Assembly: GCA_009920665.1 (NCBI GenBank)
Contig: RFZL01000013.1
Span: forward strand, 1-54,180
Origin: Alphaproteobacteria bacterium
GTDB lineage: Bacteria > Pseudomonadota > Alphaproteobacteria > Puniceispirillales > Puniceispirillaceae
Direction of reading: 5' to 3'
Length of the DNA stretch: 54,180 bases
Part shown: positions 8,522-46,082 of the stretch, in pieces
Position numbering within the stretch: position 1 is the first letter of the stretch
Layout of the letters: each line of letters opens with the position of its first letter
The notes under the pieces: model-generated
Seen by the model: the letters and a program-made list of their open reading frames with translations, nothing else
Database searches by the model: none
What the model was told of the DNA's origin: nothing
Translations under genes and position numbers: made by a program

Positions 8522-8559
8522 GGAAACCGCACTGGAAGATTGCGGAGGGGACCTGTCAC

Positions 8560-23325: not shown

Positions 23326-23507
23326 TTGTGATTCGAGGGGAAATGCGAGCTTTTGCATGATTGTCCGGGCGCATTCATATCCGGCCGCCGCCCTGAGGTT
23401 GCGCACGCAATGCGTTTGCCATGCGCATGCGATCTTGCCTTTCAGCCTGTCTTCCGCAAGATAGCGCGTCGCCGTCCGGCGTCGCCACCTGCCATGGAGA
23501 TCCACCG

Positions 23508-24500
23508 GTGACAGTTTCCGATACCGACCAGATCGATGCGCTGGCCAGTCTTGCGGCGGCCTCACTTACGCTCTGGGACGTGCCGGTGGATGCGACGGTG
23601 CGGCTGATCAACCTGTCCGAGAACGCTACCTATCTGGTGGAATCGCCCGGCGGGTTCCGCATGGTGCTGCGCCTGCATCGCGATGGCTATCACAGCCGCC
23701 GCGCGATCGAGTGCGAACTTGCCTGGATGGCGGCGCTTGCCAGCGAGGGCGGTGTCGCGACAGCGCGGCCGATTCCCGGCCGCGACGGGGCCTTGATCCA
23801 GGAGCGGGGAGGTGGTGGGCTGGCGCCGCGCCGCATGGTGATGTTCGAGTTTCTTGCCGGGACGGAACCCGACCCTGACCAGGATCTGGTCGCCCCGTTC
23901 CGGCAGCTTGGCGCCGTCGCGGCGAAGACGCATCTGCACACGGTCAGCTGGGTCCGCCCGCACCCTTTTGAAAGGCTGGTATGGGATGACGAGACGGTGT
24001 TCGGCCCGCATGCCACCTGGGGCGACTGGCGCGCCGCGCCGGGGCTTGATGTTGAAAGCATCGCCCGTCTCGAGGCCGCCGAAATGCTTGTTCGCGAACG
24101 TCTTGCCGCCTATGGTCGCGGGACGGACAGCTATGGGCTGATCCATGCGGACATGCGGCTTGCCAACCTCCTGATCGATGGTGGCAGGACAAGACTGATT
24201 GATTTCGATGATTGTGGGTTCGGGTGGTTCATGTATGACTTCGCCGCTGGCATCAGCTTCATGGAGGACGATCCCCGGGTGCCGGCATTGCGCGCCGCCT
24301 GGCTTGAGGGCTATCGCGCTGTCAGGCCGCTGAGCGCGGCCGACGAGGTGGAAATCGACAGCTTCATCATGTTGCGCCGGATGGCATTGCTGGCCTGGAT
24401 CGGATCGCATGCCGGCACCGAACTGGCCCGTTCGCAGGCTCCGCATTTCGCGTTTGTCTCGGCGCGGTTGGCGCGCGATTATCTGGATCGGTGTGGCTGA
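23508..24500 (+). CDS. Aminoglycoside-phosphotransferase-like kinase
   Basis: A 330-residue kinase of the APH/choline kinase fold, in the subgroup of homoserine-kinase-like and SrkA/YihE-like proteins. The catalytic loop reads HADMRLANLL and the metal site IDFDDCGFGWFMYDFA. The N-lobe contains LSENATYLVESPGGFRMVLR with the ATP-binding Lys replaced in part by LRLHRDGYHS typical of this subgroup. The substrate could be a small amino alcohol or protein. The GTG at 23508 is preceded by GGAG at 8 bases; the frame upstream has no match. The TGA overlaps the ATG of the EamA gene, so the two are translated together. Confidence 0.88.
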   Translation: MTVSDTDQIDALASLAAASLTLWDVPVDATVRLINLSENATYLVESPGGFRMVLRLHRDGYHSRRAIECELAWMAALASEGGVATARPIPGRDGALIQERGGGGLAPRRMVMFEFLAGTEPDPDQDLVAPFRQLGAVAAKTHLHTVSWVRPHPFERLVWDDETVFGPHATWGDWRAAPGLDVESIARLEAAEMLVRERLAAYGRGTDSYGLIHADMRLANLLIDGGRTRLIDFDDCGFGWFMYDFAAGISFMEDDPRVPALRAAWLEGYRAVRPLSAADEVEIDSFIMLRRMALLAWIGSHAGTELARSQAPHFAFVSARLARDYLDRCG

Positions 24501-25408
24501 TGGCGTGGTTCGGGCTCAGCCCTGACGAGGCGCGCGGCCATCTTGCCATGCTTGGCTTCTCGGCGCTTGTCGCCGGCTCGTTCAGCCTTGGCACTATCGT
24601 CGCCAATGATATCGACCCGCAGGCCATCACCGCGGCGCGCTTTGTCCTGGCGACCGTCGTCATGGGGTTTGTCGCCGCCATGCAGCGCGACCTTAAGCCA
24701 TCCCACCTTCGCAGGCCCTGGCGCTATTTCATTCTTGGCGGCCTGTTCACGCTGTATTTTGTGCTGATGTTCGAGGGGTTGAAGACGGCTACGCCGGTCT
24801 CGGCGGCGGCGGTGTTCACGCTGATGCCGTTGATGTCAGCTGTCTTCGGCTGGGTCTTGCTGCGCCAGGTCACGACGCCGCGTATGGCGACGGCTCTTGC
24901 CATTGCCGGTGGTGGCGCGTTGTGGGTGATTTTCCGCGGCGATCTGGCGGCGTTGACGGCGCTCGATATCGGCCGCGGCGAGATGATCTATTTCATCGGC
25001 TGTATCGCGCATGCGCTTTACACGCCGATGGTGCGCAAACTGAATGCCGGCGAGGGGGCGGCGGTCTTCACCTTCGGCATGCTGGTCGCCGGCTCGATCC
25101 TGCTTGGCGTTATCGGCTTTGATGAAATTCGCGCCACCGACTGGATGGCCCTGGCGCCGATGGTCTGGATCACCATTGGCTATCTGACGATCTTCTCCAC
25201 CGCCTCGTCCTTCTTTCTGCTGCAATATGCGACCCTGCGGCTGCCAAGCGCCAAGGTCATGGCCTATTCCTATCTGACGCCGGGATGGGTGATGCTGTGG
25301 GAAATCGGCTTTGGCAACGCGCTGCCGCCGGTGCCGATGCTGCTTGGTCTTGTCGCCACGGTGGTGGCGCTGGCGATGCTGCTGCGTAACGAGGATCGCG
25401 TCGGCTAG
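24500..25408 (+). CDS. EamA/DMT-family transporter
   Basis: A 302-residue membrane protein with ten predicted helices in two EamA repeats (about 8-140 and 155-295). Characteristic stretches are GTIVANDIDPQAITAARFVL, LKTATPVSAAAVFTLMPLMS, and SAKVMAYSYLTPGWVML in the second repeat. Members export amino acids, nucleosides or metabolites. It is coupled to the APH-like kinase gene by a one-base overlap, suggesting a shared physiological task such as handling a small hydroxylated or amino compound. Confidence 0.93.
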   Translation: MAWFGLSPDEARGHLAMLGFSALVAGSFSLGTIVANDIDPQAITAARFVLATVVMGFVAAMQRDLKPSHLRRPWRYFILGGLFTLYFVLMFEGLKTATPVSAAAVFTLMPLMSAVFGWVLLRQVTTPRMATALAIAGGGALWVIFRGDLAALTALDIGRGEMIYFIGCIAHALYTPMVRKLNAGEGAAVFTFGMLVAGSILLGVIGFDEIRATDWMALAPMVWITIGYLTIFSTASSFFLLQYATLRLPSAKVMAYSYLTPGWVMLWEIGFGNALPPVPMLLGLVATVVALAMLLRNEDRVG

Positions 25409-25437: not shown

Positions 25438-25485
25438 TGACAATTCCGGCACCTGACAATTCTGGCACCTAACAATTCTGGCACA
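25438..25485. repeat. Three-copy 16 bp tandem repeat at a stop codon
   Basis: TGACAATTCCGGCACC, TGACAATTCTGGCACC and TAACAATTCTGGCACA lie head to tail (25438-25453, 25454-25469, 25470-25485). The last copy includes the end of the flavoprotein gene on the minus strand, so the array is a tandem amplification of that gene's terminal codons and stop. Confidence 0.9.
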
Positions 25486-27511
25486 GGCGCAGCGCGTCGG
25501 TCACCGCCGCATTGACGTTGCGGCTGGCCACGGCATCGCCGATCCGGTGAAGCTCGAACGCCGAAGCGCCATTGGCGGATGGCGGCTGCGCGCTGCCAGT
25601 CACCATCATCCCGAGATCGGTCACACCGCCATTGCGGGAGCGCGGCGCCAGCTCGTGAAACAGCGCATCCGCCGGCACCGTGCCATAATCGAAAATTACC
25701 TGTGCCGCGCTTTTTTCCAGATCGCTGCCGGTCAACTCGCTCCGCAGTGTGGCGACAAGCCGGTTGCCCTCGCGCCTGACGCCGACAAGCGCATGTTCGG
25801 TGGTTGTCTCGATCCCGGTCTCGGCGGCCCATTTGCGCCAGATCACCCGCTCGGCATAGGCCTGTTCCATGGCCAGCGTCTCGTCGACGGTCACCAGGCT
25901 GACCCGCGCGCCGGCGGCATGCGCGACATCCGCCGCGCTCATCGCCACATGCCGGCCGGTACCGTCGATGACAAGAACATCGGCCGCCGGCGTCACCGTC
26001 CCCTGGATGATATCCCAGGGGCTGGTCAGTTCATTACCGCCCGGCACCCGGTCGATATTGGGAACGCCGCCGGTGGCGACGATCACAAGATCGGGGTTGC
26101 AGGCCAGCACATCCCCGGCCTCGGCGAATACCCCGCATCGAAGATCGACACCAAGCTGTTCGATCTCGGCTATGCGCCAGTCGACGATGCCGATCATGTC
26201 GCGTCGCCAGTGGGCGCGCGATGCCAGCAGGACCTGCCCGCCGGCGCGCGGCGCGGCCTCGAACAGGGTTACCTTATGGCCACGCGCGGCGGCAACCCGC
26301 GCCGCCTCCAGCCCGGCCGGCCCGGCCCCGACAATGACCACACGCCGGCGCGATGTGGCGGTTTCGATACGGTGATTCAGAACCGCCTCATGGCCGGTGG
26401 CCGGGTTGTGAAGACAGGTTGGCCGCCGGTGCGACATGCAATGGGTGGCACCAACGCAAGGCCGGATCCTGTGTTCCTCGCCGGCGGCGATCTTCTCGAC
26501 AAGATGCGGGTCGGCGATATGGGCGCGGGTCATCCCGACAAGATCGATCAGCCCTTCGGCAATGGCGTGGCGTGCCGTCGCCACATCGGAAATTCGCGCC
26601 GCATGCATCACCGGCAGGTCGATCTGTTCGCGAAAGGCGGCTGCCTTCGCCAGCCAGGGCGCCGTCGGCGAGGCCATGCCCGGCATGTTGTCGATGGCAA
26701 GACCTGCATAGGTGTCCATGCGGCCATAGATGGCGTTGAAGAAATCGAGAACACCTTCCGCCTGAAAACGCTTCGCGATGGCAAGACTGTCCTCGAATCC
26801 CAGCCCGTCCTGATGCCCCTCATCGACGATGAACCGGAAGCCGAGCAGGAAATCCGGCCCGACCGCCTTGCGGATGGCCTTGAAGACCTCGATCCCGAAG
26901 CGGCAGCGATTTTCCAGTGAGCCGCCCCAGGAATCGGTGCGCCGGTTCATCGCCGGCGACAGGAACTGGCCGATCAGATGCGCGCCTGACAGGCATTCAA
27001 TCCCGTCCAGCCCGCCAATCTGACAGCGCCGTGCGGCGGCGACAAAATCGGCTGTCACGCGGGCAATGTCCTGATCTCCCATCTCTTTGGGGATGCTGCG
27101 GTGCAGCGTCTCGCGGATCACCGACGGGGCGATGGTTGGCAACATCGCGCCCTTGTCGAATTCGCCGCGCCGTCCAAGATGCGTGATCTGGCACATCAGG
27201 GCGCTTCCGGCCTCATGGATGCGTGAGGAAAACCGGGTCAGATGCGGGATGACCTCATCCACTCCGAGATTGAGCTGCGGCATCACCGACGGCGAATCGA
27301 TCGAGACATTGGACGATCCGCCAAACATCGTCAGCCCGATCCCGCCGCGTGCCTTTTCAAGATGATAGGCCTGATAGCGGTCGGCAGGCATCCCGCCCTC
27401 ACCAAGTCCGCAGGCATGGCTTGTGCTCATGATCCGGTTGCGCAGCGTCACATGTCCCAGCCTGAAGGGCTGCAGCAGCGGGTCGGTCCCCTCGGTTTTC
27501 CTGTCCGTCAT
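25469..27511 (-). CDS. OYE/trimethylamine dehydrogenase-type flavin oxidoreductase
   Basis: A 680-residue two-part flavoprotein. Residues 11-350 are an old-yellow-enzyme TIM barrel for FMN (QPFRLGHVTLRNRIMSTSH, GLDGIECLSGAHLIGQFLSP). Residues 352-366 are the iron-sulfur cluster segment and 388-680 a FAD/NAD module with GAGPAG at 395-400. The layout matches trimethylamine dehydrogenase, dienoyl-CoA reductase and N-methylproline demethylase; the early SHACGLGEGGMPADRYQAYH fits the demethylase-like branch better. Oddly, of the four usual cluster cysteines only Cys352, Cys358 and Cys366 are present, Ala355 taking one place. GGAGGG before the ATG at 27511 sets the start. It is divergent from the MttB-family gene, which suggests joint use in removing N-methyl groups. 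Confidence 0.9.
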   Translation of the reverse strand: MTDRKTEGTDPLLQPFRLGHVTLRNRIMSTSHACGLGEGGMPADRYQAYHLEKARGGIGLTMFGGSSNVSIDSPSVMPQLNLGVDEVIPHLTRFSSRIHEAGSALMCQITHLGRRGEFDKGAMLPTIAPSVIRETLHRSIPKEMGDQDIARVTADFVAAARRCQIGGLDGIECLSGAHLIGQFLSPAMNRRTDSWGGSLENRCRFGIEVFKAIRKAVGPDFLLGFRFIVDEGHQDGLGFEDSLAIAKRFQAEGVLDFFNAIYGRMDTYAGLAIDNMPGMASPTAPWLAKAAAFREQIDLPVMHAARISDVATARHAIAEGLIDLVGMTRAHIADPHLVEKIAAGEEHRIRPCVGATHCMSHRRPTCLHNPATGHEAVLNHRIETATSRRRVVIVGAGPAGLEAARVAAARGHKVTLFEAAPRAGGQVLLASRAHWRRDMIGIVDWRIAEIEQLGVDLRCGVFAEAGDVLACNPDLVIVATGGVPNIDRVPGGNELTSPWDIIQGTVTPAADVLVIDGTGRHVAMSAADVAHAAGARVSLVTVDETLAMEQAYAERVIWRKWAAETGIETTTEHALVGVRREGNRLVATLRSELTGSDLEKSAAQVIFDYGTVPADALFHELAPRSRNGGVTDLGMMVTGSAQPPSANGASAFELHRIGDAVASRNVNAAVTDALRLCQNC

Positions 27512-27663
27512 GCAGTCAGCCCTCCAGCGTGGCAATCTATCCCGGCAAAATCATGCGGCGAAGCCGGGCCTGTTGCAATAGCGCGGCATATTTGGTTCTT
27601 GCCGGGCGGCGGCTAAGCCGCGATGCTGGTGATGAACAGACAGACCATCCGGGACGTTCGCGA

Positions 27664-29238
27664 ATGTCGGACAGCAATATCGCAAACCGCCAGCGGCGCG
27701 GTCGGCGGGCCAGGGGCGCGGAACCGGCGGCATCGGCCGCGCCGGTTCTGGCCCCGGTCGGCGGCAGGCTGCAGCTTCTCGATGCGGTGGCCCTGCAGCG
27801 CATCCATGAGACCGCGCTTGTGCTGCTGGCCCGGACCGGCATCGCCGAGGCGCCGCCGGCGGTGGTGGAGCTGGCGACCGGTGCCGGCGCGGCGCTTGGC
27901 GAGGATGGCAGGCTGCGCTTTCCGGAATCGCTTGTCGAGCGCGTGCTTGCCGGTCTGCCGCGCCAGATCGGCCTTCACGGGCGCGGTGATGAAGGACCGC
28001 TCGTCCTTGGCGGTGATGAAGTGCATGTCGGCACCGGCGGTGCCTCGCCGGAAATTCTCGACCTTGCCAGCGGGCAGTACCGGCCCTCGATGCTTGCGGA
28101 TATCCATCTGGCGGCGCGGCTTGTCGATGGTCTTGAGCATGTGCATTTCTTCAGCCGACCGATGGTGGCGCGCGATATCGAGCCGCCGCTGCGGATGGAG
28201 GTGAACACCGCCTGGGCCTGCCTTGCCGGCACCGCGAAACATGTCATGGTCAGCGCGTCCTCGGTTGAGGCGGTGGATGAGATCGCCGAGCTTGTCTATA
28301 TGCTTGCTGGCTCCGAAGCGGCCTTCCGCGCCGCGCCTTTCCTGTCGCTGAACGTCAATCATATCGTGCCCCCGCTGCGTTTCGACGCCGACTCCGCCGC
28401 TGTCCTGTTGCGGGCTGTCGCGCGCGGTATTCCGGTGATGGTCAACACTTTCGGCCAGCTTGGCGCGTCGAGCCCGGTCACGATCGCCGGATGTGTGGCG
28501 CAGACAACCGCCGAGACGCTTGCCGGCATGGTGCTTGCCTTTCTTGTCGATCCGGATGTGCCGGCCATTTTCGGGCCACGGCCGATGGTCACCGACCTGC
28601 GGACCGGCGCCATGTCGGGTGGCGGCGGTGAACAGGCAAAGCTGACGGCGGCGGCCATCCAGATGGCGCGGTTCTACGGGCTGCCAAGCTCGACCATCGC
28701 CGGTGCCACCGATTCGAAATGGCCGGATGCGCAGGCCGGTCACGAGAAATGCCTGGCAGTCACGCTGGCGGTGCAGGCCGGCGCGCATTTCATCACCCAG
28801 GCGGCGGGAACGCAGGCAAGTCTGATGGGAACCTCGCTTGAGGCCTATGTGATCGACAATGACATGCTTGGCGCGATCCTCAGTGCGCATACCGCCATCG
28901 AGGTGTCTGACGACACGCTGGATGCGGGCGCGATCCATGACGCGGCCACCGGCGCCGGCCATTTCCTTGGCGAGGCGACCACGCTGGCGCGGATGAACAG
29001 CGATTTCCTCTATCCTGCCATCGGTGACCGGCGCAGCATCGGTGAATGGCAGGATGCTGGCCGGCCCGATATCTGGCGGCGGGCGCATGAACGGGTGCGT
29101 GAATCTCTTGCCGCACCGCCGCGCCAGCTTGTCGATCCGGCGCTGGCGGCCCGCATCGAATCCAGATTTGCGCTGACGCCATTACCATCGGCGCTATCAC
29201 AGACCCTGACCACTGACGAGGTGTCCCATGTCGGATGA
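27664..29238 (+). CDS. MttB-superfamily (trimethylamine methyltransferase-like) protein, no pyrrolysine
   Basis: A 524-residue TIM barrel of the MttB superfamily. The N-terminus (NRQRRGRRARG...) and RIHETALVLLARTGI are family hallmarks, as are VHVGTGGASPEILDLASG, PLRMEVNTAWACLAGTAKHV and QAGAHFITQAAGTQASLMGT. No in-frame amber codon exists, so it is the non-pyrrolysine type, whose studied members demethylate quaternary amines such as glycine betaine with a corrinoid partner. No corrinoid protein or reactivase is encoded nearby. The ATG at 27664 was chosen where the family N-terminus begins. It overlaps the ureohydrolase gene by 11 bases, so both proteins are probably needed together. Confidence 0.9.
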   Translation: MSDSNIANRQRRGRRARGAEPAASAAPVLAPVGGRLQLLDAVALQRIHETALVLLARTGIAEAPPAVVELATGAGAALGEDGRLRFPESLVERVLAGLPRQIGLHGRGDEGPLVLGGDEVHVGTGGASPEILDLASGQYRPSMLADIHLAARLVDGLEHVHFFSRPMVARDIEPPLRMEVNTAWACLAGTAKHVMVSASSVEAVDEIAELVYMLAGSEAAFRAAPFLSLNVNHIVPPLRFDADSAAVLLRAVARGIPVMVNTFGQLGASSPVTIAGCVAQTTAETLAGMVLAFLVDPDVPAIFGPRPMVTDLRTGAMSGGGGEQAKLTAAAIQMARFYGLPSSTIAGATDSKWPDAQAGHEKCLAVTLAVQAGAHFITQAAGTQASLMGTSLEAYVIDNDMLGAILSAHTAIEVSDDTLDAGAIHDAATGAGHFLGEATTLARMNSDFLYPAIGDRRSIGEWQDAGRPDIWRRAHERVRESLAAPPRQLVDPALAARIESRFALTPLPSALSQTLTTDEVSHVG

Positions 29239-30205
29239 CAGTTTCTTCACCCCGGTTTCGGCGCTGGACATGCCGCGCTTCGCCGGCATGCCGAATTTCA
29301 TGCGGTTGCCGCATCTGACGCTGGACTCGCCGCGCATCGACGAGGTGGAGATGGCGTTGGTCGGCGTTCCCTGGGATGCCGGTACGACGAACCGGCCGGG
29401 CCCCAGGCACGGGCCACGTCAACTGCGCGATCTGTCGACGATGATCCGGGCGATGAACCCGGTGACCGGTGTGGCCCCTTTCACCATGGTGAACTGCGCC
29501 GATCTTGGTGATGTCGGCCCGAACCCGATCGACCTTGATGACAGCATGCAGCGCATCGCCGGCTTCTATGGCGAACTGGCCGCGCGCGGGATTACGCCGA
29601 TGACGGCCGGCGGCGATCATCTTGTTTCGCTTCCGGTGCTGCGCGGCATCGCCGCTGGCGGGGCTCTGGGGATGATCCATTTCGATGCCCATACCGACCT
29701 GTTCGACAGCTATTTTGGCGGCTTTCGCTACACCCATGGAACGCCGTTCCGGCGCGCCATTGAAGAGGGGCTTCTTGATCCGAAGCGGGTTGTGCAGATC
29801 GGCATTCGCGGCACCGCCTACAATACCGAGGATGTCGATTGGGGCCTGTCACAGGGGGTGCGGATCATCCGGATCGAGGAGCTTTTCGAGCGCGGTATCG
29901 CCGATGTGATGGCCGAGGCGCGTGAAATTGTCGGCGCGGCGCCAACCTATTGTTCCTTCGATATCGATTTCATCGATCCGAGTTTCGCCCCTGGTACGGG
30001 TACGCCCGAAATCGGCGGTGTCACATCCTTTCAGGCGCAGCAGGTCGTGCGCGAGCTGTCCGGGGTGAATCTGGTCGGTGCCGATCTTGTCGAGGTGTCA
30101 CCGCCATTCGATGCCGCCGGTGGCACCGCCTGGGTCGGGGTGTCGATCATGTTCGAGCTGATGTGTGTGCTGGCCGAGGCCATTGTCGCGCGCCGCACCG
30201 GCTAG
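29228..30205 (+). CDS. Ureohydrolase (agmatinase/guanidinobutyrase family)
   Basis: A 325-residue arginase-fold enzyme with the complete binuclear manganese site: His131 (GGDHLVSLP), Asp153, His155 and Asp157 (HFDAHTDLF), Asp245 and Asp247 (SFDIDFIDPSFAPGTGTPE). Such enzymes split guanidino compounds to urea and an amine: agmatine, guanidinobutyrate, guanidinopropionate, or related amidines. Substrate-loop residues cannot be matched to one of these. No urease or polyamine genes are adjacent. Its start lies inside the MttB-family gene. The pairing of a guanidine hydrolase with methyl-group-removing enzymes is the notable context. Confidence 0.93.
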   Translation: MSDDSFFTPVSALDMPRFAGMPNFMRLPHLTLDSPRIDEVEMALVGVPWDAGTTNRPGPRHGPRQLRDLSTMIRAMNPVTGVAPFTMVNCADLGDVGPNPIDLDDSMQRIAGFYGELAARGITPMTAGGDHLVSLPVLRGIAAGGALGMIHFDAHTDLFDSYFGGFRYTHGTPFRRAIEEGLLDPKRVVQIGIRGTAYNTEDVDWGLSQGVRIIRIEELFERGIADVMAEAREIVGAAPTYCSFDIDFIDPSFAPGTGTPEIGGVTSFQAQQVVRELSGVNLVGADLVEVSPPFDAAGGTAWVGVSIMFELMCVLAEAIVARRTG

Positions 30206-30243
30206 CTGGGGAGCGATCCCGGGCTTGGATCATCGCGGCCCGG

Positions 30244-31101
30244 TCATCCCTGGGTGGCGGTGGCTTCCATTTCGGCCCACATCTCGATCACCCATTGCCG
30301 GATGAGCAACGCCTCTTCCCAGCGGTTCGACATTTCGCGCCCGTCGGCACCGGTCATCGCATATTCCGGCGGTCCGAGCTCGCACAGGAAGATGCAGTCG
30401 CCGGCCGTGTTGCGCGCCCGCCAGCTTTCCAGCCCGTCACGCCACCATCCCCTGAACAGCTCGACCCATTTCGCATGCTGCGGGAAATCGAGCTGAAGCT
30501 GGATCTGCTGGCGGCTGGCGACGCGCCCCTGGAAACTGTCCGACCGTTCGATGATCCGACGGATCAGCCCGGCGTCACGCGCCTCGAGCGGCAGCTTGAA
30601 TTCGCGGTCGACGACGAAATGTGACAGGTCGGCGCAAAGCCGCATTTCCGGCACCGCATCGATCAGGCACAGGGTGGCGTAGAGATCATTGGTGATGCAG
30701 TTGCGGTGCGTCTCGAACTGGATCGGCATGCCGACCTCGTCCGCCATATCGATCCAGCGGCGGATCACCGGAATCATCCCGTCAACACTCAGCGGCATCA
30801 CCTGGCCGATGACATCCACAAAGGGAGCCCCGAAATCCTTTGCCATGATCAGCGTCTCGCGAAGTGATTCGACGCTTTTCGGGAAGGCGACGATCAGCGG
30901 CGTCAGCCCGGCGCGTTCCATATGCGGGCGCACCTCGCGGGCCTGCGCCACGTCACCGGCGCCAAGGTCGATCGCCATGCCGTCATAGCCGGCCGCGGCA
31001 ACCATCTCGCAAATCCGGTCATAGGGCAGGATGGTACCGCTGTCGTCATGCGGCATCATCGCCCAGAGCGATGTGAAGGTCTTGAGCTTTCGCGACGACA
31101 T
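30244..31101 (-). CDS. TIM-barrel isomerase/endonuclease-IV-like protein
   Basis: A 285-residue protein of the xylose isomerase-like TIM-barrel superfamily. Visible features: ICEMVAAAGYDGMAIDLGAG, IQFETHRNCITNDLYATL with the Glu-His metal pair, LCADLSHFVVDREF, and CELGPPEYAMTGADGREMSN as the last strand. Sugar or sugar-acid isomerases and epimerases share this fold. It is the last gene of the minus-strand unit, 7 bp after the desaturase gene, and faces the ureohydrolase gene tail to tail. A role in rearranging a hydroxylated intermediate is possible but unproven. Confidence 0.85.
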   Translation of the reverse strand: MSSRKLKTFTSLWAMMPHDDSGTILPYDRICEMVAAAGYDGMAIDLGAGDVAQAREVRPHMERAGLTPLIVAFPKSVESLRETLIMAKDFGAPFVDVIGQVMPLSVDGMIPVIRRWIDMADEVGMPIQFETHRNCITNDLYATLCLIDAVPEMRLCADLSHFVVDREFKLPLEARDAGLIRRIIERSDSFQGRVASRQQIQLQLDFPQHAKWVELFRGWWRDGLESWRARNTAGDCIFLCELGPPEYAMTGADGREMSNRWEEALLIRQWVIEMWAEMEATATQG

Positions 31102-31108
31102 GGCCCGG

Positions 31109-32089
31109 TCAGGCTTCCAGGCGCGCGGTGCGGCCACCCGCCACCGGCACGATCCAGGCCTCATCCATCGGCCACTGGCTTTCATCCTTCTGCATCAGGC
31201 GCTTCACCACCTCGATCTGGAACTCGATCCAGCCCATGCGATGCACCGGGCCGGCCGCCGATTCGATCTTGTCATTCAGCTTGCGGAGTTGCCAGAACGG
31301 CACCGACGGATAGCTGTGATGCGCGGTGTGGTAGGGCATCTGCCAGCACAGCCAGCGCATGACGGCGTTGGTCCGCGTCGAGCGGGTGTTGTGAAGAATG
31401 TCGGTCTCATGCGACAGGCCGAGATGCTCGATCGTGTTCTGCAGCTGATGGACCCATTTTGTCAGCACCATCGGCAGCAGCCAGAAGGTCACGGCGGCCC
31501 AGCTTTCAAACACCACCGACAATGCCGCGATGACCGCATAGCCGGCGATATGAAGGCGGGATTCGCGGATGATCTTGCCCTCCAGCGCGGCGCTGATATA
31601 GGGCTCGATGATGATTCCGCGGGCACGTCTGACCAGGCCGGTAACACGGTTCATCCAGTAGGTGATGCCGATGAAATAGACAAGATAGCTTTGCAGCGTG
31701 TAGGGCGCGCGGGTCAGTTCGCCGTCACGTTCCCAGTTCGAGGTCCAGCGATGATGCGCCTGGTGCATGGCCAGATCGTAATCACGCGGAAAGATCATCG
31801 CGAAACCGACAAGACGCCCGAAGATCTCGTTCAGCCGGCGCGTCCGGAAGACGGTCCAGTGCGACAGCTCATGCTGCGCCGCGTAGAGGAAATTGACGAC
31901 CACGCCGAGGGCGAATCCGGTCGCCACCACCCACCATGTGCCCATGGCGAGGAAATGCAGATAGCCGAGCGCCGCGATGGCGCCAAGATGGCTTGCCATC
32001 TGCAGGCCGCCGGCAAGGTCGGACTTGGCGTTGAACTCCTTCAACTCTGCCCCGCTCAGGAGCTTTCTGGTCGAAAAGCTTTCTTCCAC
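31109..32089 (-). CDS. Membrane desaturase/hydroxylase with three His boxes
   Basis: A 326-residue integral membrane di-iron enzyme of the fatty acid desaturase superfamily. Histidine boxes are HELSH (residues 73-77), HQAHH (109-113) and HTAHH (254-258), with a further His in NTIEHLG. Four membrane helices frame them. The superfamily includes lipid desaturases, alkane and carotenoid hydroxylases and small-molecule hydroxylases. The gene is a GTG start preceded by GAGG, lies in a transporter operon and not near lipid genes, so hydroxylation of an imported small molecule is a reasonable guess. A lipid role cannot be excluded. Confidence 0.9.
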   Translation of the reverse strand: MEESFSTRKLLSGAELKEFNAKSDLAGGLQMASHLGAIAALGYLHFLAMGTWWVVATGFALGVVVNFLYAAQHELSHWTVFRTRRLNEIFGRLVGFAMIFPRDYDLAMHQAHHRWTSNWERDGELTRAPYTLQSYLVYFIGITYWMNRVTGLVRRARGIIIEPYISAALEGKIIRESRLHIAGYAVIAALSVVFESWAAVTFWLLPMVLTKWVHQLQNTIEHLGLSHETDILHNTRSTRTNAVMRWLCWQMPYHTAHHSYPSVPFWQLRKLNDKIESAAGPVHRMGWIEFQIEVVKRLMQKDESQWPMDEAWIVPVAGGRTARLEA

Positions 32090-32214
32090 TGTTGTTACCT
32101 CGGTCGCGCAGGATTGTTGTCGTCAGGCTAACAGCCTATGGCGGGCACCGGCAAGCCGCGATGCGGCCGGTGGTCACAGCCGTGGCTGTGTCGGGTCCCG
32201 CGATCGGGTCCGGT

Positions 32215-33885
32215 TTACATCCGGCTGGTCGCGGCATCCCCGAGATTTTCCGCACCGCGCTCCTCCAGAAGCTGGTCGAGCCAGCCAGGGTCCATTTCCG
32301 GCACCGAGCTCAGCAGCAGATCGGTATAGGCATGGTGCGGCGGGGTGAACATCTCGTCCTTCGGGCCGGCCTCGACAATCAGCCCGTCCTTCATCACCAC
32401 CACCTCGTCGGCGATGGCGCGCACCGTCGACAGATCATGCGTGATCAGCATGTAGGACAGCTTCATTTCGTCCTGAAGACGTGTCAGCAGCTTCAGGATG
32501 CCCTCGGCGACAAGCTGGTCAAGGGCCGAGGTCACCTCGTCACAGATAATGAATTTCGGTTCCGCCGCCAGCGCCCGCGCGATGCCGATACGCTGTTTCT
32601 GGCCGCCTGAAAGCTCGGAGGGCAGGCGGTCGATATACTCGCCGGGCTCCATCTCGATCTGTTCGAGAAGCTGTTCGACGCGGCGGCGCTTTTTGGCTCC
32701 CTTCAGCCCCAGATAGAATTCTACCGGGCGGCCGATAATCTCGCCGATCCGCTTGCGCGGGTTCAACGCGGTGTCGGCCATCTGGTAGATCATCTGCACC
32801 TGGCGCAGCTGATCGACACTGCGCTTGCGGTAATCGGCCGGCAGCACGGTATTTTCAAAGGCAATCTCGCCCTCGCGCGGCGGCAGCAGGCCGGTGATAC
32901 AGCGGGCGGTGGTCGATTTGCCCGATCCGGACTCGCCGACGACGGCGACAGTGCGGCCTTCATGAATGTCAAAACTGACATCGCGGACCACCGGGTCGCC
33001 ATCGCCATAGGCGGCGGTGACGTTGCGAAGGCTGATCACCGGCGTGGCCCCCGTCTTGACGGCGGGCTTTGGCGGGCGCTGGAAGCTGCGAACGGCCCAG
33101 AGCGATTTTGTGTAATCCTCGCGCGGTGCCTCCAGCATGGTGCGGGTATCGGCCTCCTCGACCTCGTCGCCGCGAAGCAGCACCTTCACCCGGTCCGCCA
33201 TCTGCGCGACGACGGCAAGGTCATGCGTGATGTAGATGGCGGCGGTCTGGAATTGCTCGACAATCTCGCGGATCGCCGCCAGCACCTCGATCTGGGTTGT
33301 CACATCAAGCGCCGTGGTCGGCTCATCGAAGATGATCAGGTCGGGACGGCAGGACATCGCCATCGCCGTCATCGCGCGCTGCAGCTGTCCGCCAGAAACC
33401 TGATGCGGATAGCGGAACCCGATCTCGTCCGGGTTGGGAAGGCGCAGCCGGCGATACAGCTCGATGGCATCCGCCTCGGCGTCATTCCGGCTCGCCAGGC
33501 CATGGAACAGCGGTGCCTCGGAATGCTGGTTGATGATCTTGTGCGCCGGGTTGAAGCTGGCGGCAGCGGACTGCGCGACATAGGCGATGCGCTTGCCAAG
33601 AAGCTGCCGTCTGATGTCCGGCGTGGCGCCGACAAGGTCAATGCCGTCAAATTCGACCGACCCGCCGACAATCTCGCACCCGTCGCGTGTAAAGCCCATC
33701 GCGGCCAGGCCAAGCGTGGATTTGCCGGCACCCGATTCGCCGATCAGCCCCAGAACCTCGCCCCGTTTCAGGTCGAGATCGACCTTGTTGATGATCCGCA
33801 CCCGCGTCTCGTCGGTGATGCCGTCGATCTCCAGATCGCGGATCCGGACAAGCATGTCCCCGTCAGCTGTCTGTTTCGCAGCCAT
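32215..33885 (-). CDS. Fused oligopeptide-type ABC ATPase (DppD-DppF)
   Basis: A 556-residue protein holding two complete ATPases in one chain. Half one has Walker A GESGAGKSTLG, signature VSGGQLQRAMTAMA and Walker B LIIFDEPTTALD; half two has GESGSGKSTTAR, LSGGQKQRIGIARA and FIICDEVTSALD. Each carries the C-terminal oligopeptide-family extension region, the second ending in the PxHxYTxxL-like PPHHAYTDLLLSSVP. It powers the adjacent binding-protein-dependent importer. The ribosome site AAGGAG is located within the final codons of the upstream permease gene. Fused forms are common in alphaproteobacteria. Confidence 0.96.
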   Translation of the reverse strand: MAAKQTADGDMLVRIRDLEIDGITDETRVRIINKVDLDLKRGEVLGLIGESGAGKSTLGLAAMGFTRDGCEIVGGSVEFDGIDLVGATPDIRRQLLGKRIAYVAQSAAASFNPAHKIINQHSEAPLFHGLASRNDAEADAIELYRRLRLPNPDEIGFRYPHQVSGGQLQRAMTAMAMSCRPDLIIFDEPTTALDVTTQIEVLAAIREIVEQFQTAAIYITHDLAVVAQMADRVKVLLRGDEVEEADTRTMLEAPREDYTKSLWAVRSFQRPPKPAVKTGATPVISLRNVTAAYGDGDPVVRDVSFDIHEGRTVAVVGESGSGKSTTARCITGLLPPREGEIAFENTVLPADYRKRSVDQLRQVQMIYQMADTALNPRKRIGEIIGRPVEFYLGLKGAKKRRRVEQLLEQIEMEPGEYIDRLPSELSGGQKQRIGIARALAAEPKFIICDEVTSALDQLVAEGILKLLTRLQDEMKLSYMLITHDLSTVRAIADEVVVMKDGLIVEAGPKDEMFTPPHHAYTDLLLSSVPEMDPGWLDQLLEERGAENLGDAATSRM

Positions 33886-33890
33886 GCGCC

Positions 33891-35078
33891 CTACTCCTTC
33901 AAGCCGGATGCGCGATGCAGCATCCAGTCAACGACAAAATTCACCGCGACGGTCAACAGCGCGATGGCGCCGGCCGCCATCAGCGGCAGCGAGGCTGTCA
34001 GCGGGCTGATCACGGCGAAATTGATGAATTGCGACAGGTCGCGGACCATCGTCCCCCAGTCGGCAAGCGGCGGCTGGATGCCGATTCCAAGGAAGGACAA
34101 CGAGGCGATGGTCAGGAAGACAAAGCAGAATCGCAGCCCGAATTCGGCCAGCAGCGGGGCAAAGGCGTTCGGTGTGATCTCGCTGAAGATCAGATAGGAC
34201 AGCTTTTCGCCGCGCAGTTTCGCCGCCTCGAAGAAATCCATCACCACGATGTTCATGCCGACGGCGCGCGCCAGCCTGAACACGCGGGTGGAATCAAGCA
34301 CCGCGATGATGACGATCATGAACAGGGTGACCATCGATTTCTGTGATCCGAACCAGGCCGTGGCGATGGTCATCAGCAACAGCGCGAAGATCAGCTGCGG
34401 GATCGACATCAGCATATCGACGATGCGCGACAGGACCTGATCAAGGACGCCGCCGATGGTGGCGGCCAGAAATCCGAGGCTGATGCCGATGAAGAAGGCC
34501 AGCAGGGTTGTGACGAAGGCAATGCCGACGGTGTTCTGCGCGCCATAGATGAGGCGCGAGAGAATGTCGCGTCCGATCTGGTCGGTGCCGAGGAAATGTG
34601 CCGGGTTGCCGCCCATTTCGGGATTGCCGCCGGGAAGGACATTGGCGTCCTTGAAAATCTCCGCCTGACCGTAGGGTGCGATGAAATCGGCGAAGATGGC
34701 GACAATGGCATAGATCAGGATCAGCAGGATCCCAAGCGCCGCTGTCACCGGCATCGAGCGGAACAGTTTTTTCGAGGCCCTGGTGCCAACATGGCGGCCG
34801 AGCTGCTGGAACAGGAAGCCGACAATGCCGAAACCGACGACACCATGCACCGCCCAGCGGAAGAAGGTCGCGCCGGGGTTCATGCCGGGGCCGAAATACA
34901 GAGCGATGCCCTGATAGAGGGTGACCAGGAGGAGGCTGTAACCGAAGGCGCCTGTCGGGGTGATATCGCGCAACCGCTCGATCGATCTGGCGCCACCAAT
35001 CTGCCGTCCACCGAAATACAGCGTCAGCGCGCCGGCGACGACAAGGGCCGACCAGTAGGAAAGTGGCAGGGTTGGCAT
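33891..35078 (-). CDS. Oligopeptide-type ABC permease (DppC-like) with N-terminal extension
   Basis: A 395-residue permease; DppC/OppC proteins normally have about 290-300. The first 105 residues add three hydrophobic segments (about 8-25, 44-62, 74-92) ahead of the usual OppC N-terminal region at SMPVTAALGILLILIYAIVA. The core contains NPAHFLGTDQIGRDILSRLIYGAQNT, which is the standard DppC hallmark, and the EAA loop EAAKLRGEKLSYLIFSE. ATG at 35078 has GGAG seven bases upstream. It is 10 bp after the DppB-like gene. Confidence 0.93.
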   Translation of the reverse strand: MPTLPLSYWSALVVAGALTLYFGGRQIGGARSIERLRDITPTGAFGYSLLLVTLYQGIALYFGPGMNPGATFFRWAVHGVVGFGIVGFLFQQLGRHVGTRASKKLFRSMPVTAALGILLILIYAIVAIFADFIAPYGQAEIFKDANVLPGGNPEMGGNPAHFLGTDQIGRDILSRLIYGAQNTVGIAFVTTLLAFFIGISLGFLAATIGGVLDQVLSRIVDMLMSIPQLIFALLLMTIATAWFGSQKSMVTLFMIVIIAVLDSTRVFRLARAVGMNIVVMDFFEAAKLRGEKLSYLIFSEITPNAFAPLLAEFGLRFCFVFLTIASLSFLGIGIQPPLADWGTMVRDLSQFINFAVISPLTASLPLMAAGAIALLTVAVNFVVDWMLHRASGLKE

Positions 35079-35088
35079 CACGCGTCTC

Positions 35089-36087
35089 CTATTTCGGCAG
35101 CCGCAGCCGCGGGTTGGAGAGGATCGACATGACGTCGGCGATCAGGTTCAACGAGATATAGGCCGCCGCGAAGACAAGGCAGCAGGCCTGCACCACCGGT
35201 ATGTCGCGGATTTTCACCGAATCAACGAATAGCTGACCAACCCCGGGATAGACGAACACCACCTCGACCACGACCACGCCGGTGATCAGATAGGCAAGAT
35301 TCAGCGCGATCACATTGATGATCGGCGCCAGCGCGTTCGGTAGCGCGTGCACGACGATGATGCGGAAAGGCGACAGGCCCTTGAGGCGCGCCATCTCGAT
35401 ATAGGGCGAGGCAAGCAGATTGATGATTGCCGCCCGCGTCATCCGCATCATATGCGCCGTCACCACCAGCGTCAGCGTCAAGGCCGGCAGCATCGTCTTC
35501 TCCAGCTTCTGGCCGAAATCCATGCCGTCATGAATGTTCGAGAGGGACGGGAACACCGGGCTGAGGACCGCCAGCAGCAGGATCAGGATATAGGCGACGA
35601 AGAATTCCGGGCTGGAGATCGAGGTCAGGGTGCTGACATTGGCGATGCGGTCGAAGATCGAATAGCGGTACAGCGCCGCCAGAACGCCGATGAGCAGTGA
35701 CAATGGCACGGCGATCGCCGCCGTGACGCCGGCAAGAAACAGCGTGTTGGCGAAGCGCGGGGCCAACTGGTCGGCAACAGTGCCGAAATTGGCGTCGGCC
35801 GTGGTGCCGGCATAGGACGAGAAATTGGCTTTCGCGAAACTGGTGCCGAAATCCCACTGCACCGCGCCGAGCAGCCAGTCGAAATAGCGGATATGGATCG
35901 GTTTATCGAGGCCGAGATCCTTGCGGATCGCGGCCACCGCCTCGGGCGTTGCCGATTGCCCGAGAAGTGCCTGCGCGAAATCGCCCGGCAGCATGTTGAC
36001 GGCGAGAAAAATAATCACCGACACCATGAACATGGTCAGCAGACCAAGCCCGAGGCGCTTGCCGATGATGGTGATTACATTGTTCAT
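35089..36087 (-). CDS. Oligopeptide-type ABC permease (DppB-like)
   Basis: A 332-residue inner-membrane permease. It begins KRLGLGLLTMFMVSVIIFLA and has the conserved FAQALLGQSATPEAVAAIRK with the DLGLDKPIHIRYFDWL periplasmic stretch of the OppB/DppB family, and the EAA loop YIEMARLKGLSPFRIIVVHA. The C-terminus has VFVYPGVGQLFVDSVKIRD. An upstream ATG at 36102 is possible; the one at 36087 has GAGG at close distance. It follows the binding-protein gene after a terminator-like hairpin. Confidence 0.95.
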   Translation of the reverse strand: MNNVITIIGKRLGLGLLTMFMVSVIIFLAVNMLPGDFAQALLGQSATPEAVAAIRKDLGLDKPIHIRYFDWLLGAVQWDFGTSFAKANFSSYAGTTADANFGTVADQLAPRFANTLFLAGVTAAIAVPLSLLIGVLAALYRYSIFDRIANVSTLTSISSPEFFVAYILILLLAVLSPVFPSLSNIHDGMDFGQKLEKTMLPALTLTLVVTAHMMRMTRAAIINLLASPYIEMARLKGLSPFRIIVVHALPNALAPIINVIALNLAYLITGVVVVEVVFVYPGVGQLFVDSVKIRDIPVVQACCLVFAAAYISLNLIADVMSILSNPRLRLPK

Positions 36088-36176
36088 CCCTGCCTCATGC
36101 ATCGCTCACGGTCATGGCCCCGGTTTTACGGGTGATCGCGAACAGACAAATGTCAGAATCAGTAAATAAAGGAAAA

Positions 36177-36198
36177 GGCGGGACCCGAAGGTCCCGCC
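36177..36198 (-). terminator. Terminator-like hairpin between binding-protein and permease genes
   Basis: On the minus strand GGCGGGACC-TTCG-GGTCCCGCC forms a 9 bp GC-rich stem closed by a UUCG tetraloop, followed by TTTTCCTTTATTT. This is a textbook intrinsic terminator 16 bp after the stop of the binding-protein gene, yet the permease genes follow at once. Partial read-through would set a high binding-protein to permease ratio. Confidence 0.9.
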
Positions 36199-36213
36199 GG
36201 GATGTATTCAGGA

Positions 36214-37761
36214 TCAGGCCGTCCACCAGCGCTTGCAGCTGCGCAGGTTGTCGAGCATCCAGAGATTGCCGGTCTTGCCGCTATGCTCGACACGGTTCGA
36301 TTTCGCGTCGACATAATTCTGGTACATCGGCACGACGGTGGCACCCTCGTCACGGCAGATGGACTGCATCTCGCGGTAGATTTCACTACGAAGCCCGGTG
36401 TCGAGCTGGGCGCGGCCCTCGAGAAGCAGCTTCTGGAAGCGCTCATTCTGCCAGCCGGTATCGTTCCACGGAACGCCGGACTCATAGGCGGTCGAGAACA
36501 TCCAGTCCTCGGTCGCGCGGCCGGACCAGTAGCAGGCACACCATGGCTTCTTCAGCCAGACATTCGACCAGTAACCGTCAGCCGGCTCCTGGACGATGTT
36601 GATGTTGATTCCCGCGCCATTGCCGGAGTTCTGATAGAGCTGACCGGCATCGACCGCACCGGCGAAGGCACCGTCGGACACGCTCAGATCAACGTTGAGC
36701 GAGGACAGGCCGGCTTCCTTCAGATAGAACTTGGCCTTGTCAGGGTCATACTCGGTCTGCTCGAGATCGGCGGCGTAATACTGGTTCGCCGGCCCGATCG
36801 GGTGGTCGTTGCCGACCGCACCGTGACCAAGCAGGATCTTGTCGACCATCTCCTGGCGGTTGACGGCGTATTTCAGCGCCCGGCGCACATTCACATCATC
36901 GAAGGGCGCGTTGCCGACCAGCATCGGGAAGGTGTTGTGCATGTTGCCCGTCACCTCGATGATGTCGATGTTGATGTAGGCGTTCAGCAGCTTCACCGAT
37001 TTGAAGTCAACCCGGTTGATGGCGTCGACCTGGCTTGTCATCAGCGCGTTGACACGGGCCGAGGCATCAGCGATGTAGATCTGCTCGACCTCGGCGAAAT
37101 AGCCGCGGTTGTCAGCATCCCAGTGATCCTCGAACTTGGTGACAAGCGCACGAACGCCGGGCTCGAACGAGACCACCTTGTAGGGGCCGGTTCCAATGCC
37201 ACCGGCGATCGCCTCGGCGATCTGGCCGGCCGGGAACATGCAGATATGATAGTCGGACACCAGATACGGGAAGTCGGCGCTGCCGGACTTCAGGACAAAC
37301 TGTACCTGATGGTCGGACAGCTTCTTCATCTCGGAGACCGCAGAGACGATCGGCTTGGCGGCCGACTTGGCGCCTTCCTCGACATGCATGTTCATCGACT
37401 CGATGACGTCATCGGCGCCGAAAGGCTTGCCATTGTGGAACGTCACACCCTTGCGCAGATTGAAGGTCCAGATCTTCGCGTCGGGCGATGCCTCCCAGCT
37501 TTCCGCCAGTTCGCCGACAAGCTCGCCAGCTGACGATACTTCGGTCAGCGTCTCGAACACACAGCCGGCGCCCATATTGATCATGAAACTGTCGGAATGG
37601 GTACGGCTGTCCCAGGTATCCGACGTGTTGCCGCCGGACATGCCGATGCGGTAGGTGCCGCCATGCTTTGGCGCGGCCATCGCCGGCATGCCGGTAACGG
37701 ACAGCGCGCCCGCGGCAGCGGCTGTCTTCAATGCGGTCCGTCTTGAAATGTTCAAAGTCAT
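36214..37761 (-). CDS. Oligopeptide-type ABC substrate-binding protein, Tat-exported
   Basis: A 515-residue SBP_bac_5 family protein. The N-terminus, NISRRTALKTAAAAGALSV, is a twin-arginine (SRRxxLK) export signal with likely cleavage after MAA near residue 30. The mature part has GGTYRIGMSGGNTSDTWDSR, WTFNLRKGVTFHNGKPFGAD and DVNVRRALKYAVNRQEMVDK, all standard family segments. These proteins bind peptides, opines, nickel or quaternary/guanidino compounds. GGAGGAGG precedes the ATG. First gene of the operon with the two permeases, ATPase, desaturase and isomerase; the ligand is likely the substrate of those enzymes. Confidence 0.95.
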   Translation of the reverse strand: MTLNISRRTALKTAAAAGALSVTGMPAMAAPKHGGTYRIGMSGGNTSDTWDSRTHSDSFMINMGAGCVFETLTEVSSAGELVGELAESWEASPDAKIWTFNLRKGVTFHNGKPFGADDVIESMNMHVEEGAKSAAKPIVSAVSEMKKLSDHQVQFVLKSGSADFPYLVSDYHICMFPAGQIAEAIAGGIGTGPYKVVSFEPGVRALVTKFEDHWDADNRGYFAEVEQIYIADASARVNALMTSQVDAINRVDFKSVKLLNAYINIDIIEVTGNMHNTFPMLVGNAPFDDVNVRRALKYAVNRQEMVDKILLGHGAVGNDHPIGPANQYYAADLEQTEYDPDKAKFYLKEAGLSSLNVDLSVSDGAFAGAVDAGQLYQNSGNGAGININIVQEPADGYWSNVWLKKPWCACYWSGRATEDWMFSTAYESGVPWNDTGWQNERFQKLLLEGRAQLDTGLRSEIYREMQSICRDEGATVVPMYQNYVDAKSNRVEHSGKTGNLWMLDNLRSCKRWWTA

Positions 37762-37973: not shown

Positions 37974-38654
37974 TCATTCGGCGGAGGGCGCCGACGATGC
38001 ATTCCAGCTGGCTAGAATGGCGTCATGGCGAAGCAGCGCCTTGGTGTCGCGGCGCACGCCGATCCAGCGCAGATGGATCGAGTTGCGGACGATTTCCTCA
38101 TCGAGTGCCTTCAATTCGTCGGCAATCGGTGCCCAATGGAAGACCGCGTCAGAACTGGCCCGAAAGGCGGCTGGCCCGTCGGCGATGTCGGCCCAGTTGG
38201 CAAAGCTGGCGCGGCGATGGCCTTCGGCCAGCATCTCGAGGAACACTTTCGCTTCGACATCCTGCTGTTCGTAATCGGTCAGCACCTCATCCATGATGCC
38301 GCCGGCAAAACCGGCGCTTTGCTGATGGTCAAGGGTGCCGCGAACATGGAACTGCGCCGCCGCGAACAGCGCCATGTCGGCGACGGCGGCGCCGAAGATA
38401 TGCCAGCGCGCAATCCGCAGCGAGGTCAGGAAATCCTCGTTCGTGAACAGCTTCGGATATTGCATGCCGGCGCGCGCCTTGATGTAGGTATAGAGCGTCA
38501 CCTGCGAAACATAGGCGGCGTTTTTCGCCGTATGCTCAATCAATTGCCGGTAGGATTCGATGGGTGGCTGGCCAATGAATCCCAGCGTTCGAAAGACCGA
38601 TTTGAGCGTTTCCGGCAGAGGCATTTTTCTCGAAAACAGAAAAGTGGTTGTCAT
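37974..38654 (-). CDS. Conserved-looking hypothetical protein, 226 residues
   Basis: I do not recognise this family. It is soluble, mostly helical, with many His and Trp residues in the middle (RIARWHIFGAAVADMALFAA, AAQFHVRGTLDHQQS, FLEMLAEGHRRASFANWADI). No signal peptide or nucleotide-binding motif is seen. ATG at 38654 has AGGAG seven bases upstream. It is divergent from the DUF4212/symporter unit, 160 bp away, so a link to solute uptake is possible. Downstream lies the 212 bp control region of the peptide-type transporter. Confidence 0.7.
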   Translation of the reverse strand: MTTTFLFSRKMPLPETLKSVFRTLGFIGQPPIESYRQLIEHTAKNAAYVSQVTLYTYIKARAGMQYPKLFTNEDFLTSLRIARWHIFGAAVADMALFAAAQFHVRGTLDHQQSAGFAGGIMDEVLTDYEQQDVEAKVFLEMLAEGHRRASFANWADIADGPAAFRASSDAVFHWAPIADELKALDEEIVRNSIHLRWIGVRRDTKALLRHDAILASWNASSAPSAE

Positions 38655-38814
38655 TTTTGCACTCCTGAGTACCATCGGGGCGCAACGAAGTCGCGGTAAA
38701 AAACAATAACAGACCGTGATGGAAGGGGAGGCTTCGGGGCTGACATTCCTCAGCTGGTTCCGGAGCTAAGGTGCTACTCGCCGCGAGGCGGGTGCTTCAA
38801 CAGGAGGAATTTCC

Positions 38815-41346: not shown

Positions 41347-41355
41347 AGGGTGATG

Positions 41356-43529: not shown

Positions 43530-43535
43530 CGGGTT

Positions 43536-44156: not shown

Positions 44157-44159
44157 GAC

Positions 44160-45986: not shown

Positions 45987-46043
45987 GGTCTGGTTCCCTG
46001 GCCGTATGGGCGGGTTGTTCTGTCACGCAGTATCTCACAGCGG

Positions 46044-46080: not shown

Positions 46081-46082
46081 GC

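Follow-up and report, generated by a model that had tools for sequence, protein, structure and literature searches.

What do the genes at positions 25469–37761 of the 54,180-nucleotide stretch analyzed here (the window) do together, and do they form one pathway? The window is contig C25 (RFZL01000013.1) of a 2.69 Mb genome in 214 contigs, whose host we take to be a SAR116-type alphaproteobacterium; below, G numbers denote genomes of its family (G000 is the window genome, hence G000:C25 for the window), L numbers the loci read and C numbers contigs. The initial annotation had described a catabolic island comprising a flavin enzyme (DemF), a methyltransferase of the MttB superfamily, a ureohydrolase (Ureo), a TIM-barrel isomerase (Iso), a desaturase-like protein (Des) and a dedicated importer. 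All of these genes are present in this region and profile matches agree with the families named. The island is real and, since its arrangement recurs in relatives, not a product of chance. Its core is a two-gene Des-Iso unit, beside which an Opp-type importer and ureohydrolase-family genes are shown to recur. With a probability of roughly 45%, we propose that the island serves the catabolism of a small guanidino-type and/or N-methylated acid, probably originating from marine plankton.

Linkage was surveyed in 61 genomes of the family and in 68 named loci obtained from a single Des scan of genome contigs; the titles of most of these name SAR116, Planktomarina, another member of the Rhodobacteraceae or an unplaced alphaproteobacterium. 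Because of the fragmented state of many genomes, the linkage counts are minimum values. For the family genomes we counted 18 rows for Des (at least 72% identity; weaker paralogues were dropped, and one row is a gene cut off by the end of its contig), all 18 for Iso, 19 for Ureo (at least 69%), 29 for MttB (at least 49%), 28 for the DmdA family (at least 53%, without G005:C5 and second fragments in G024 and G032) and 42 of 49 for the solute-binding protein of the importer (SBP), leaving out four rows at 31–32%, a 31% row in G060 and second fragments in G048 and G057.

Close copies of Des (at least 72%) occur in 18 of the 61 genomes, and Iso occurs in exactly those 18, each time within 200 bases of Des. 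Gene calling recovers Des in 67 of the 68 named loci; by tblastn, Iso accompanies Des in 58 of them, within 200 bases in 51 and within 1,235 bases in the other seven (Iso of L055 was detected by tblastn and missed by gene calling). One of the ten loci without Iso, L049, lies on a contig that stops just past Des; the other nine lack the gene. Around the pair, the 18 genomes carry a binding protein in 14 cases (at least 43% identity, within 8 kb of Des), a ureohydrolase in 13 (3 kb), MttB in 12 (6 kb) and a DmdA-family gene in three (4 kb). Within the genus, MttB is found at most 4 kb from Iso in 11 of 12 genomes and on another contig in the twelfth. G056, listed as 99% complete, has SBP-TM1-TM2-ABC-Des-Iso (TM1 and TM2 being the permeases and ABC the ATP-binding cassette protein), Ureo, MttB, and the genes of an EamA-type permease and an APH-family kinase in one run, with no DemF match. 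The linked importer of the initial annotation is supported. Its family varies beside Des-Iso: Opp-type in many SAR116 loci, PotA/SBP_bac_8-type in L048 and L088, NMT1-like in L079, and with a family 5 binding protein in L089. The ABC gene of L047 (∼30% identical to that of the window) is of the exporter type, is not part of an importer and is followed by a gene for an AMP-binding (adenylate-forming) enzyme.

Des matches the FA_desaturase family with 122.8 bits and contains three histidine boxes, HELSH (73), HQAHH (109) and HTAHH (254), the histidines of which are invariant in 37 sequences. Its predicted model (pLDDT, the predicted local distance difference test, of 84.9) is membrane-protein-like. 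The top two Foldseek matches (E 1.0e-5 and 1.6e-5) are chains in FtsHi motor complexes, AlkB-AlkG (E 0.019) and stearoyl-CoA desaturase (E 0.63) are among the weaker ones, and no sequence of a solved structure was matched at E 0.001. The two closest plasmid relatives among those opened (38% and 37%) are adjoined by genes for an iron alcohol dehydrogenase and an alpha/beta hydrolase, one of them also by genes for a rubredoxin and a flavin adenine dinucleotide (FAD) oxidoreductase, and relatives of 29–30% identity in S. meliloti and Ruegeria adjoin a Rieske-type ferredoxin gene. Because of these neighbors, we read Des as a probable hydroxylase rather than a lipid desaturase, as the initial annotation had also suggested. 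Four Rieske-type matches lie on other contigs of the window genome. L-arginine gamma-hydroxylase GntB was rejected as an identity for Des (NCBIfam NF041365, 34.4 bits against a cut-off of 380). The window genome also contains a Des paralogue (35%) at G000:C154 (L131). After this paralogue come a 563-residue gene with no assignment and then genes of the arginase family and of DUF1989, to which we take carboxyguanidine deiminase to belong; its other flank encodes AcnX and a binding protein of the OpuAC type. The arginase-family protein of L131 is nearest to agmatinase (PDB 1wog) at 85.8 bits, which assigns no function.

Iso falls just under the Pfam cut-off for AP_endonuc_2 (30.8 versus 31.1 bits), and no sequence of a solved structure was matched at E 0.001. 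Its confident model (pLDDT 91.2) indicates a barrel fold of the sugar isomerase/epimerase type, with Z scores of 16.8–19.9 at 9–21% identity over 50 rows that include Art22, IolE, ketose-3-epimerases and others. Residues E132, D160, H163 and E243 (in a reference numbering that begins two residues ahead of the likely start) are invariant in 36 sequences; which residues bind the metal is presumed from the fold family. Gln193 of the marine clade occupies a column in which three rhizobial relatives carry histidine.

The best sign that the ureohydrolase belongs to the function of the island is that two very unlike lineages occupy the same place beside the conserved Des-Iso pair. A ureohydrolase-family gene is present in 24 of the 68 loci, ten at 80–97%, one at 44% and thirteen at 25–31% identity. 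In 22 of these 24, with both main lineages represented, it faces Iso tail to tail from the other strand at a distance of at most 500 bases, which is also the layout of the window; only in L043 and L048 are the two farther apart, at 3.2 kb and 6.9 kb. The window protein matches Arginase (PF00491) with 294.7 bits and has complete metal motifs (GGDH at 128, DAHTD at 153 and DIDFIDP at 245). By sequence it is closest to 3-guanidinopropionase: GpuA (PDB 3nip) is the nearest solved relative with 406.8 bits versus 333.6 bits for GbuA, and the recognition tyrosine is kept, Y162 standing in the column of GpuA Y157. Tyrosine is also found there in ten close orthologues of the loci and in Ruegeria pomeroyi. 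According to the accessible text of PMC10833137, Y157 of guanidinopropionase and M161 of guanidinobutyrase are substrate-recognition residues, and the A. niger guanidinobutyrase also has a tyrosine at this position, so that Y162 does not fix the substrate. In the Y162 column the 25–31% lineage has arginine and the 44% protein methionine, and these therefore probably take other substrates. The window-type gene also occurs without Des elsewhere, including in other genera. The 74% homologue of R. pomeroyi is accompanied by a glycine-betaine-type importer and a second arginase-family gene, and that of strain M382 (likewise 74%) by a betaine-type importer, a second arginase-family gene and an annotated amidinotransferase. 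The second arginase-family protein of L106 is nearest to GpuA (173.1 bits), which assigns no function, and the amidinotransferase of L108 matches chains of the deiminase/dimethylargininase type at only 21.9–26.5 bits.

MttB matches PF06253 with 383.6 bits (cut-off 25) over residues 24–512 of 538. Its frame is open, with no internal stop read as pyrrolysine, and its top solved relative is a glycine betaine methyltransferase (189 bits); it is likely an MtgB-type, non-pyrrolysine enzyme. The window genome holds several PF06253 paralogues, with four matches at E 1e-40. Candidate partners, as judged by their profile scores, are encoded together on G000:C2, away from the island: a B12-binding, MtgC-like protein (TIGR02370, 189.5 bits, below the cut-off of 215.3), an MtgD-like methyltransferase (PRK07535, 370.6 bits, cut-off 259), a DUF1638 protein and an AcsV/RamA-like activator (379.4 bits, below the cut-off of 800). 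The MttB match of G056 contains one stop in the aligned stretch, yet a 534-residue open frame is read there, and we do not call the gene broken.

MttB, too, occurs without Des elsewhere, including in other genera; L122 and L123, stretches of 18–19 kb from outside the genus, encode MttB together with an Opp-type importer and lack Des, Iso and any ureohydrolase over the length read. In L126, L125, L122 and L123, MttB and an Opp-type importer stand with genes for thiamine pyrophosphate (TPP) enzymes, some also with genes for a flavin mononucleotide (FMN)-dependent dehydrogenase, a LysR regulator or a DmdA-family protein. The DmdA-family proteins score 569.4 bits in L126 and 633.9 bits in L122 (cut-off 410), and the best solved relative of the former is PDB 3tfh (371.9 bits), presumably the dimethylsulfoniopropionate (DMSP) demethylase of SAR11. 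These may represent a DMSP/onium locus common to much of the family. On the R. pomeroyi megaplasmid (L107:9902–19222), an MttB homologue (50%) stands with a class III aminotransferase, two FAD oxidoreductases and a TPP protein nearest to sulfoacetaldehyde acetyltransferase (401.4 bits, below the cut-off of 620); as a guess, this run could be a route for an N-methylated, taurine-like compound.

DemF consists of an Oxidored_FMN domain (an old yellow enzyme, OYE, barrel) and a Pyr_redox_2 domain. It has cysteines at C353, C359 and C367, and alanine where the second cysteine would stand in the four-cysteine iron-sulfur motif that we assume from trimethylamine dehydrogenase (TMADH). This three-cysteine pattern recurs in a protein annotated as N-methylproline demethylase (L110) and in two other relatives. 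The gene is linked in only two of the 18 Des genomes, G000 and G054 (95%), the latter reading Iso-Ureo-MttB-DemF directly before a contig end; DemF would most simply be an insertion between MttB and EamA, the alternative being loss elsewhere. A 47–48% homologue occurs in four congeners, of which three were read: G058 and G048 have another FA-desaturase-like gene no more than 4 kb away from it, and in G049 a DmdA-family gene is close by. In L127:6546–10561 and L128:2971–9727, the FA-desaturase-like gene near a 48% homologue is 63–66% identical to one on S. meliloti pSymB. The DemF-homologue loci, L131 and the Ruegeria and M382 loci bring together hydroxylase, ureohydrolase, demethylase or onium importer in different arrangements, which fits the theme of the island without proving it. 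The binding protein matched 82 distinct sequences (best 113.3 bits), and no ligand is indicated. In another genus of the family (L041, L046 and L124:13304–14428), a TauD/gamma-butyrobetaine-hydroxylase-like gene lies just upstream of SBP, that of L041 being assigned by clustering only.

One fixed eight-gene pathway, as initially proposed, is therefore rejected because DemF is not conserved. MttB, moreover, often accompanies DmdA-family genes or stands without Des, Iso and ureohydrolase (L122 and L123), and the R. pomeroyi ureohydrolase keeps other company. Separation of the genes in relatives had been named as the finding that would speak against a single set; we observed it for DemF and in part for MttB, and not for Des, Iso, the importer and the ureohydrolase. 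A conserved island of catabolic character with a guanidino/methylated-amine theme is supported.

On the reading that we prefer, the importer would take up the compound, and Des would hydroxylate an unactivated carbon with O2 and electrons from general cellular donors. Iso, with its sugar-isomerase-type barrel, would rearrange or split the hydroxylated product. Ureo would cut the amidino group off a linear, 3-guanidinopropionate-like guanidino acid as urea, and MttB would pass the N-methyl group of a quaternary amine to a corrinoid protein, from which the MtgD-like protein would transfer it to tetrahydrofolate. DemF, an extra of few genomes, would oxidatively strip a further N-methyl group. The substrate class is drawn from one residue, family resemblance and recurrent linkage. 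A more specific version strikes us as distinctly doubtful: that Des-Iso is an undescribed O2-dependent pair of marine Alphaproteobacteria, in which Des attacks an unactivated carbon to open an osmolyte of the guanidino or quaternary-amine type, Iso, its metal site altered, cleaves or rearranges what results, and different importers, ureohydrolases and methyltransferases are added by lineage.

Several observations weigh against the island serving a guanidino-type or N-methylated acid. Among the island genes, no electron-transfer gene (ferredoxin or reductase) stands beside Des, and no guanidine riboswitch was matched in Rfam at gathering score in the window, L131, L106 or L108. The 68 loci and the family genomes come from related organisms and are not independent, so that a common gene order carries less weight than these counts would imply. 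Five of the 18 Des genomes have no ureohydrolase within 3 kb and six no MttB within 6 kb, contig breaks explaining some of these cases. Of the 29 MttB copies (at least 49%), 15 have a DmdA-family gene no more than 8 kb away; G053 and G051 have DmdA-family, TPP-enzyme and FMN-dehydrogenase genes directly before Des and no ureohydrolase, and G050 has a DmdA-family gene and part of a TPP gene before its contig ends. Finally, three rhizobial relatives of Iso (39–41%; three plasmids were read of 83 records with a match) adjoin an oxygenase of another, sterol-desaturase family, a Rieske or MocE ferredoxin and an FAD oxidoreductase. The genes beside one of them, for a sugar importer and an inositol phosphatase, point to a polyol, and one has a neighboring gene for S-(hydroxymethyl)glutathione dehydrogenase, as would be expected if formaldehyde were released.

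The MttB-DmdA link, the G053, G051 and G050 loci, the moc-like rhizobial Iso loci and the occurrence of Ureo and MttB each without Des make a mosaic of modules a serious rival. Two or three independent modules would then lie side by side: importer-Des-Iso for a methylated or plain polyol or sugar-like compound, with Des as an O-demethylating hydroxylase and Iso as an epimerase, and a separate APH-EamA-MttB-Ureo unit. The resemblance of the Iso fold to IolE and ketose-3-epimerases agrees with this, as do the rhizobial neighbors, the MttB and Ureo genes of other genera that lack Des-Iso, and several Rhodobacteraceae loci in which Des-Iso stands among quite different genes. A mosaic is harder to reconcile with two very different ureohydrolase lineages tail to tail with Iso in 22 of the 68 loci and with the closeness of MttB to Iso in 11 of the 12 genomes of the genus; we consider it possible, at odds well short of even. 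We regard as improbable a demethylation locus for an onium osmolyte of the DMSP/betaine type, with MttB and the DmdA-family gene as the ancestral core and Des-Iso acting on the demethylated three-carbon acid. The frequent MttB-DmdA proximity, the DmdA-family genes adjoining Des in G050, G051 and G053, the above-cut-off L126 protein with its 3tfh likeness, and the gamma-butyrobetaine-hydroxylase-like gene adjoining SBP in L046 and L124 speak for it, but the two DmdA-family matches of the window genome (41% and 44%) both lie off the contig of the window, and in our view a ureohydrolase would have no place in that pathway. That an ordinary peptide importer merely lies by a lipid desaturase among unrelated neighbors, as family-level annotations alone would read and as a fabI gene ∼8 kb from the 37% Des relative of L102 might suggest, is very improbable and disfavored, given the pairing of Des with Iso in both surveys and the alcohol dehydrogenase and hydrolase genes directly adjoining the two closest opened plasmid relatives.

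The layout of the island (Table 1) fits two transcription units by its gaps and overlaps, minus-strand SBP-TM1-TM2-ABC-Des-Iso and plus-strand MttB-Ureo converging on Iso; DemF is divergent from MttB. The gaps in the minus-strand unit are, in order, 126, 7, 5, 125 and 1 bases, the last counted from the long reading of Iso, and MttB and Ureo overlap by 11 bases. The likely starts of DemF (ATG 27511), MttB (ATG 27664) and Iso (ATG 31101), placed at in-frame methionines, lie a little off the longest frames. In the scanned region, terminator-like sites number 10 against a shuffle mean of 7.8, and promoter-like sites are at chance level (three versus 3.4 in shuffles).

Table 1. Features of the island and its upstream genes (window coordinates).
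Feature	Position	Strand	Remarks
APH-family small-molecule kinase	23421..24500	+	adjoins MttB in congeners; thrB_alt only 43.8 of 255.9 bits
EamA-type permease	24491..25408	+	adjoins MttB in congeners
DemF, OYE/TMADH-type flavin oxidoreductase; few relatives have it	25469..27511	-	family match, cysteine pattern
MttB superfamily (PF06253) methyltransferase, likely MtgB-type	27664..29238	+	GTG start at 27529 also open
Ureohydrolase (Ureo), nearest solved relative 3-guanidinopropionase GpuA	29228..30205	+	Y162 aligned to GpuA Y157
Iso, TIM-barrel isomerase/epimerase-like (predicted Art22/IolE/ketose-3-epimerase-like fold), core partner of Des	30244..31101	-	
Des, three-His-box membrane di-iron protein, FA_desaturase superfamily, read as hydroxylase	31109..32089	-	
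Opp-type importer ATPase, two-domain ABC	32215..33885	-	
Opp-type importer permease, DppC-like, BPD_transp_1	33891..35081	-	
Opp-type importer permease, Opp2B/DppB family, BPD_transp_1	35089..36087	-	
Hairpin and T-rich tail between SBP and first permease	36177..36198	-	possible attenuator
SBP_bac_5 solute-binding protein	36214..37761	-	239.8 bits

The APH and EamA genes, which the initial annotation had omitted, stand beside MttB in six of the 68 named loci, in many others of which the contig ends before that distance, and in G056. Adjoining SBP at 37974–38675 is a 233-residue gene with no Pfam match; an 85% identical gene occupies the same place in G056. Farther away, positions 2159–9624 encode a LacI regulator, a sugar-type binding protein, a permease, a mannosylglycerate hydrolase-like enzyme and an ABC ATPase, which looks like an uptake operon for a compatible-solute sugar. 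Positions 41350–47636 carry glucokinase, major facilitator superfamily, EDD-type dehydratase and glucose-6-phosphate dehydrogenase genes of the Entner-Doudoroff type.

In sunlit ocean waters, SAR116 and Rhodobacteraceae of the Planktomarina type are common. If our reading is true, a conserved hydroxylase-isomerase unit tied to a methyltransferase and ureohydrolases would be a starting point for tracing a route of organic nitrogen in the sea that is so far missing. Among the matches listed from a limited library, no paper was found, by title and beginning of abstract, to treat this island, which is no proof of absence.

Several characterized systems invite comparison with the island. Rhizopine catabolism was rejected: the available text of PMC10107442 gives the moc gene set as mocDEF with mocBA and mocC, and this set is not found here. 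With three moc-like rhizobial loci the island shares an Iso-like barrel near a membrane oxygenase; it has no ferredoxin, separate reductase or mocA-like dehydrogenase, its binding protein is of the SBP_bac_5 family and its oxygenase belongs to a different family. In methylguanidine degradation, according to the accessible part of PMC12508155, an oxygenase and a lyase (MgdH-MgdL) act together, MgdH being a 2-oxoglutarate enzyme in a riboswitch operon. The likeness is conceptual only, consisting of an oxygenase and a second protein that would resolve a hydroxylated guanidino product; unlike MgdH, Des appears to be a membrane di-iron protein, and the island has no riboswitch match. DemF shares domain order and the CVGA-x2-C ... 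C-x2-N cysteine pattern with N-methylproline demethylase-type flavoenzymes, from which it differs in its linkage to the MttB-ureohydrolase pair. Similarly, the ureohydrolase shares the metal motifs and the recognition tyrosine column with GpuA, a likeness derived from sequence, and unlike GpuA it stands in an island with a hydroxylase and a methyltransferase.

The closest parallel on the methyltransferase side is the aerobic demethylation of glycine betaine in marine bacteria, for which the accessible text of PMC12478193 describes a set of mtgB, mtgC and mtgD with a DUF1638 gene and an activator. The same text reports mtgC in SAR116 and suggests, from several PF06253 genes per genome, diverse methylated substrates, naming no gene-substrate pairs. 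The window genome resembles this system in its PF06253 enzyme with several paralogues, its MtgC/MtgD-like core, its DUF1638 gene and its activator-like gene. The difference lies in the neighborhood: in place of dimethylglycine/sarcosine genes, the MttB gene of the window adjoins a ureohydrolase and the hydroxylase unit.

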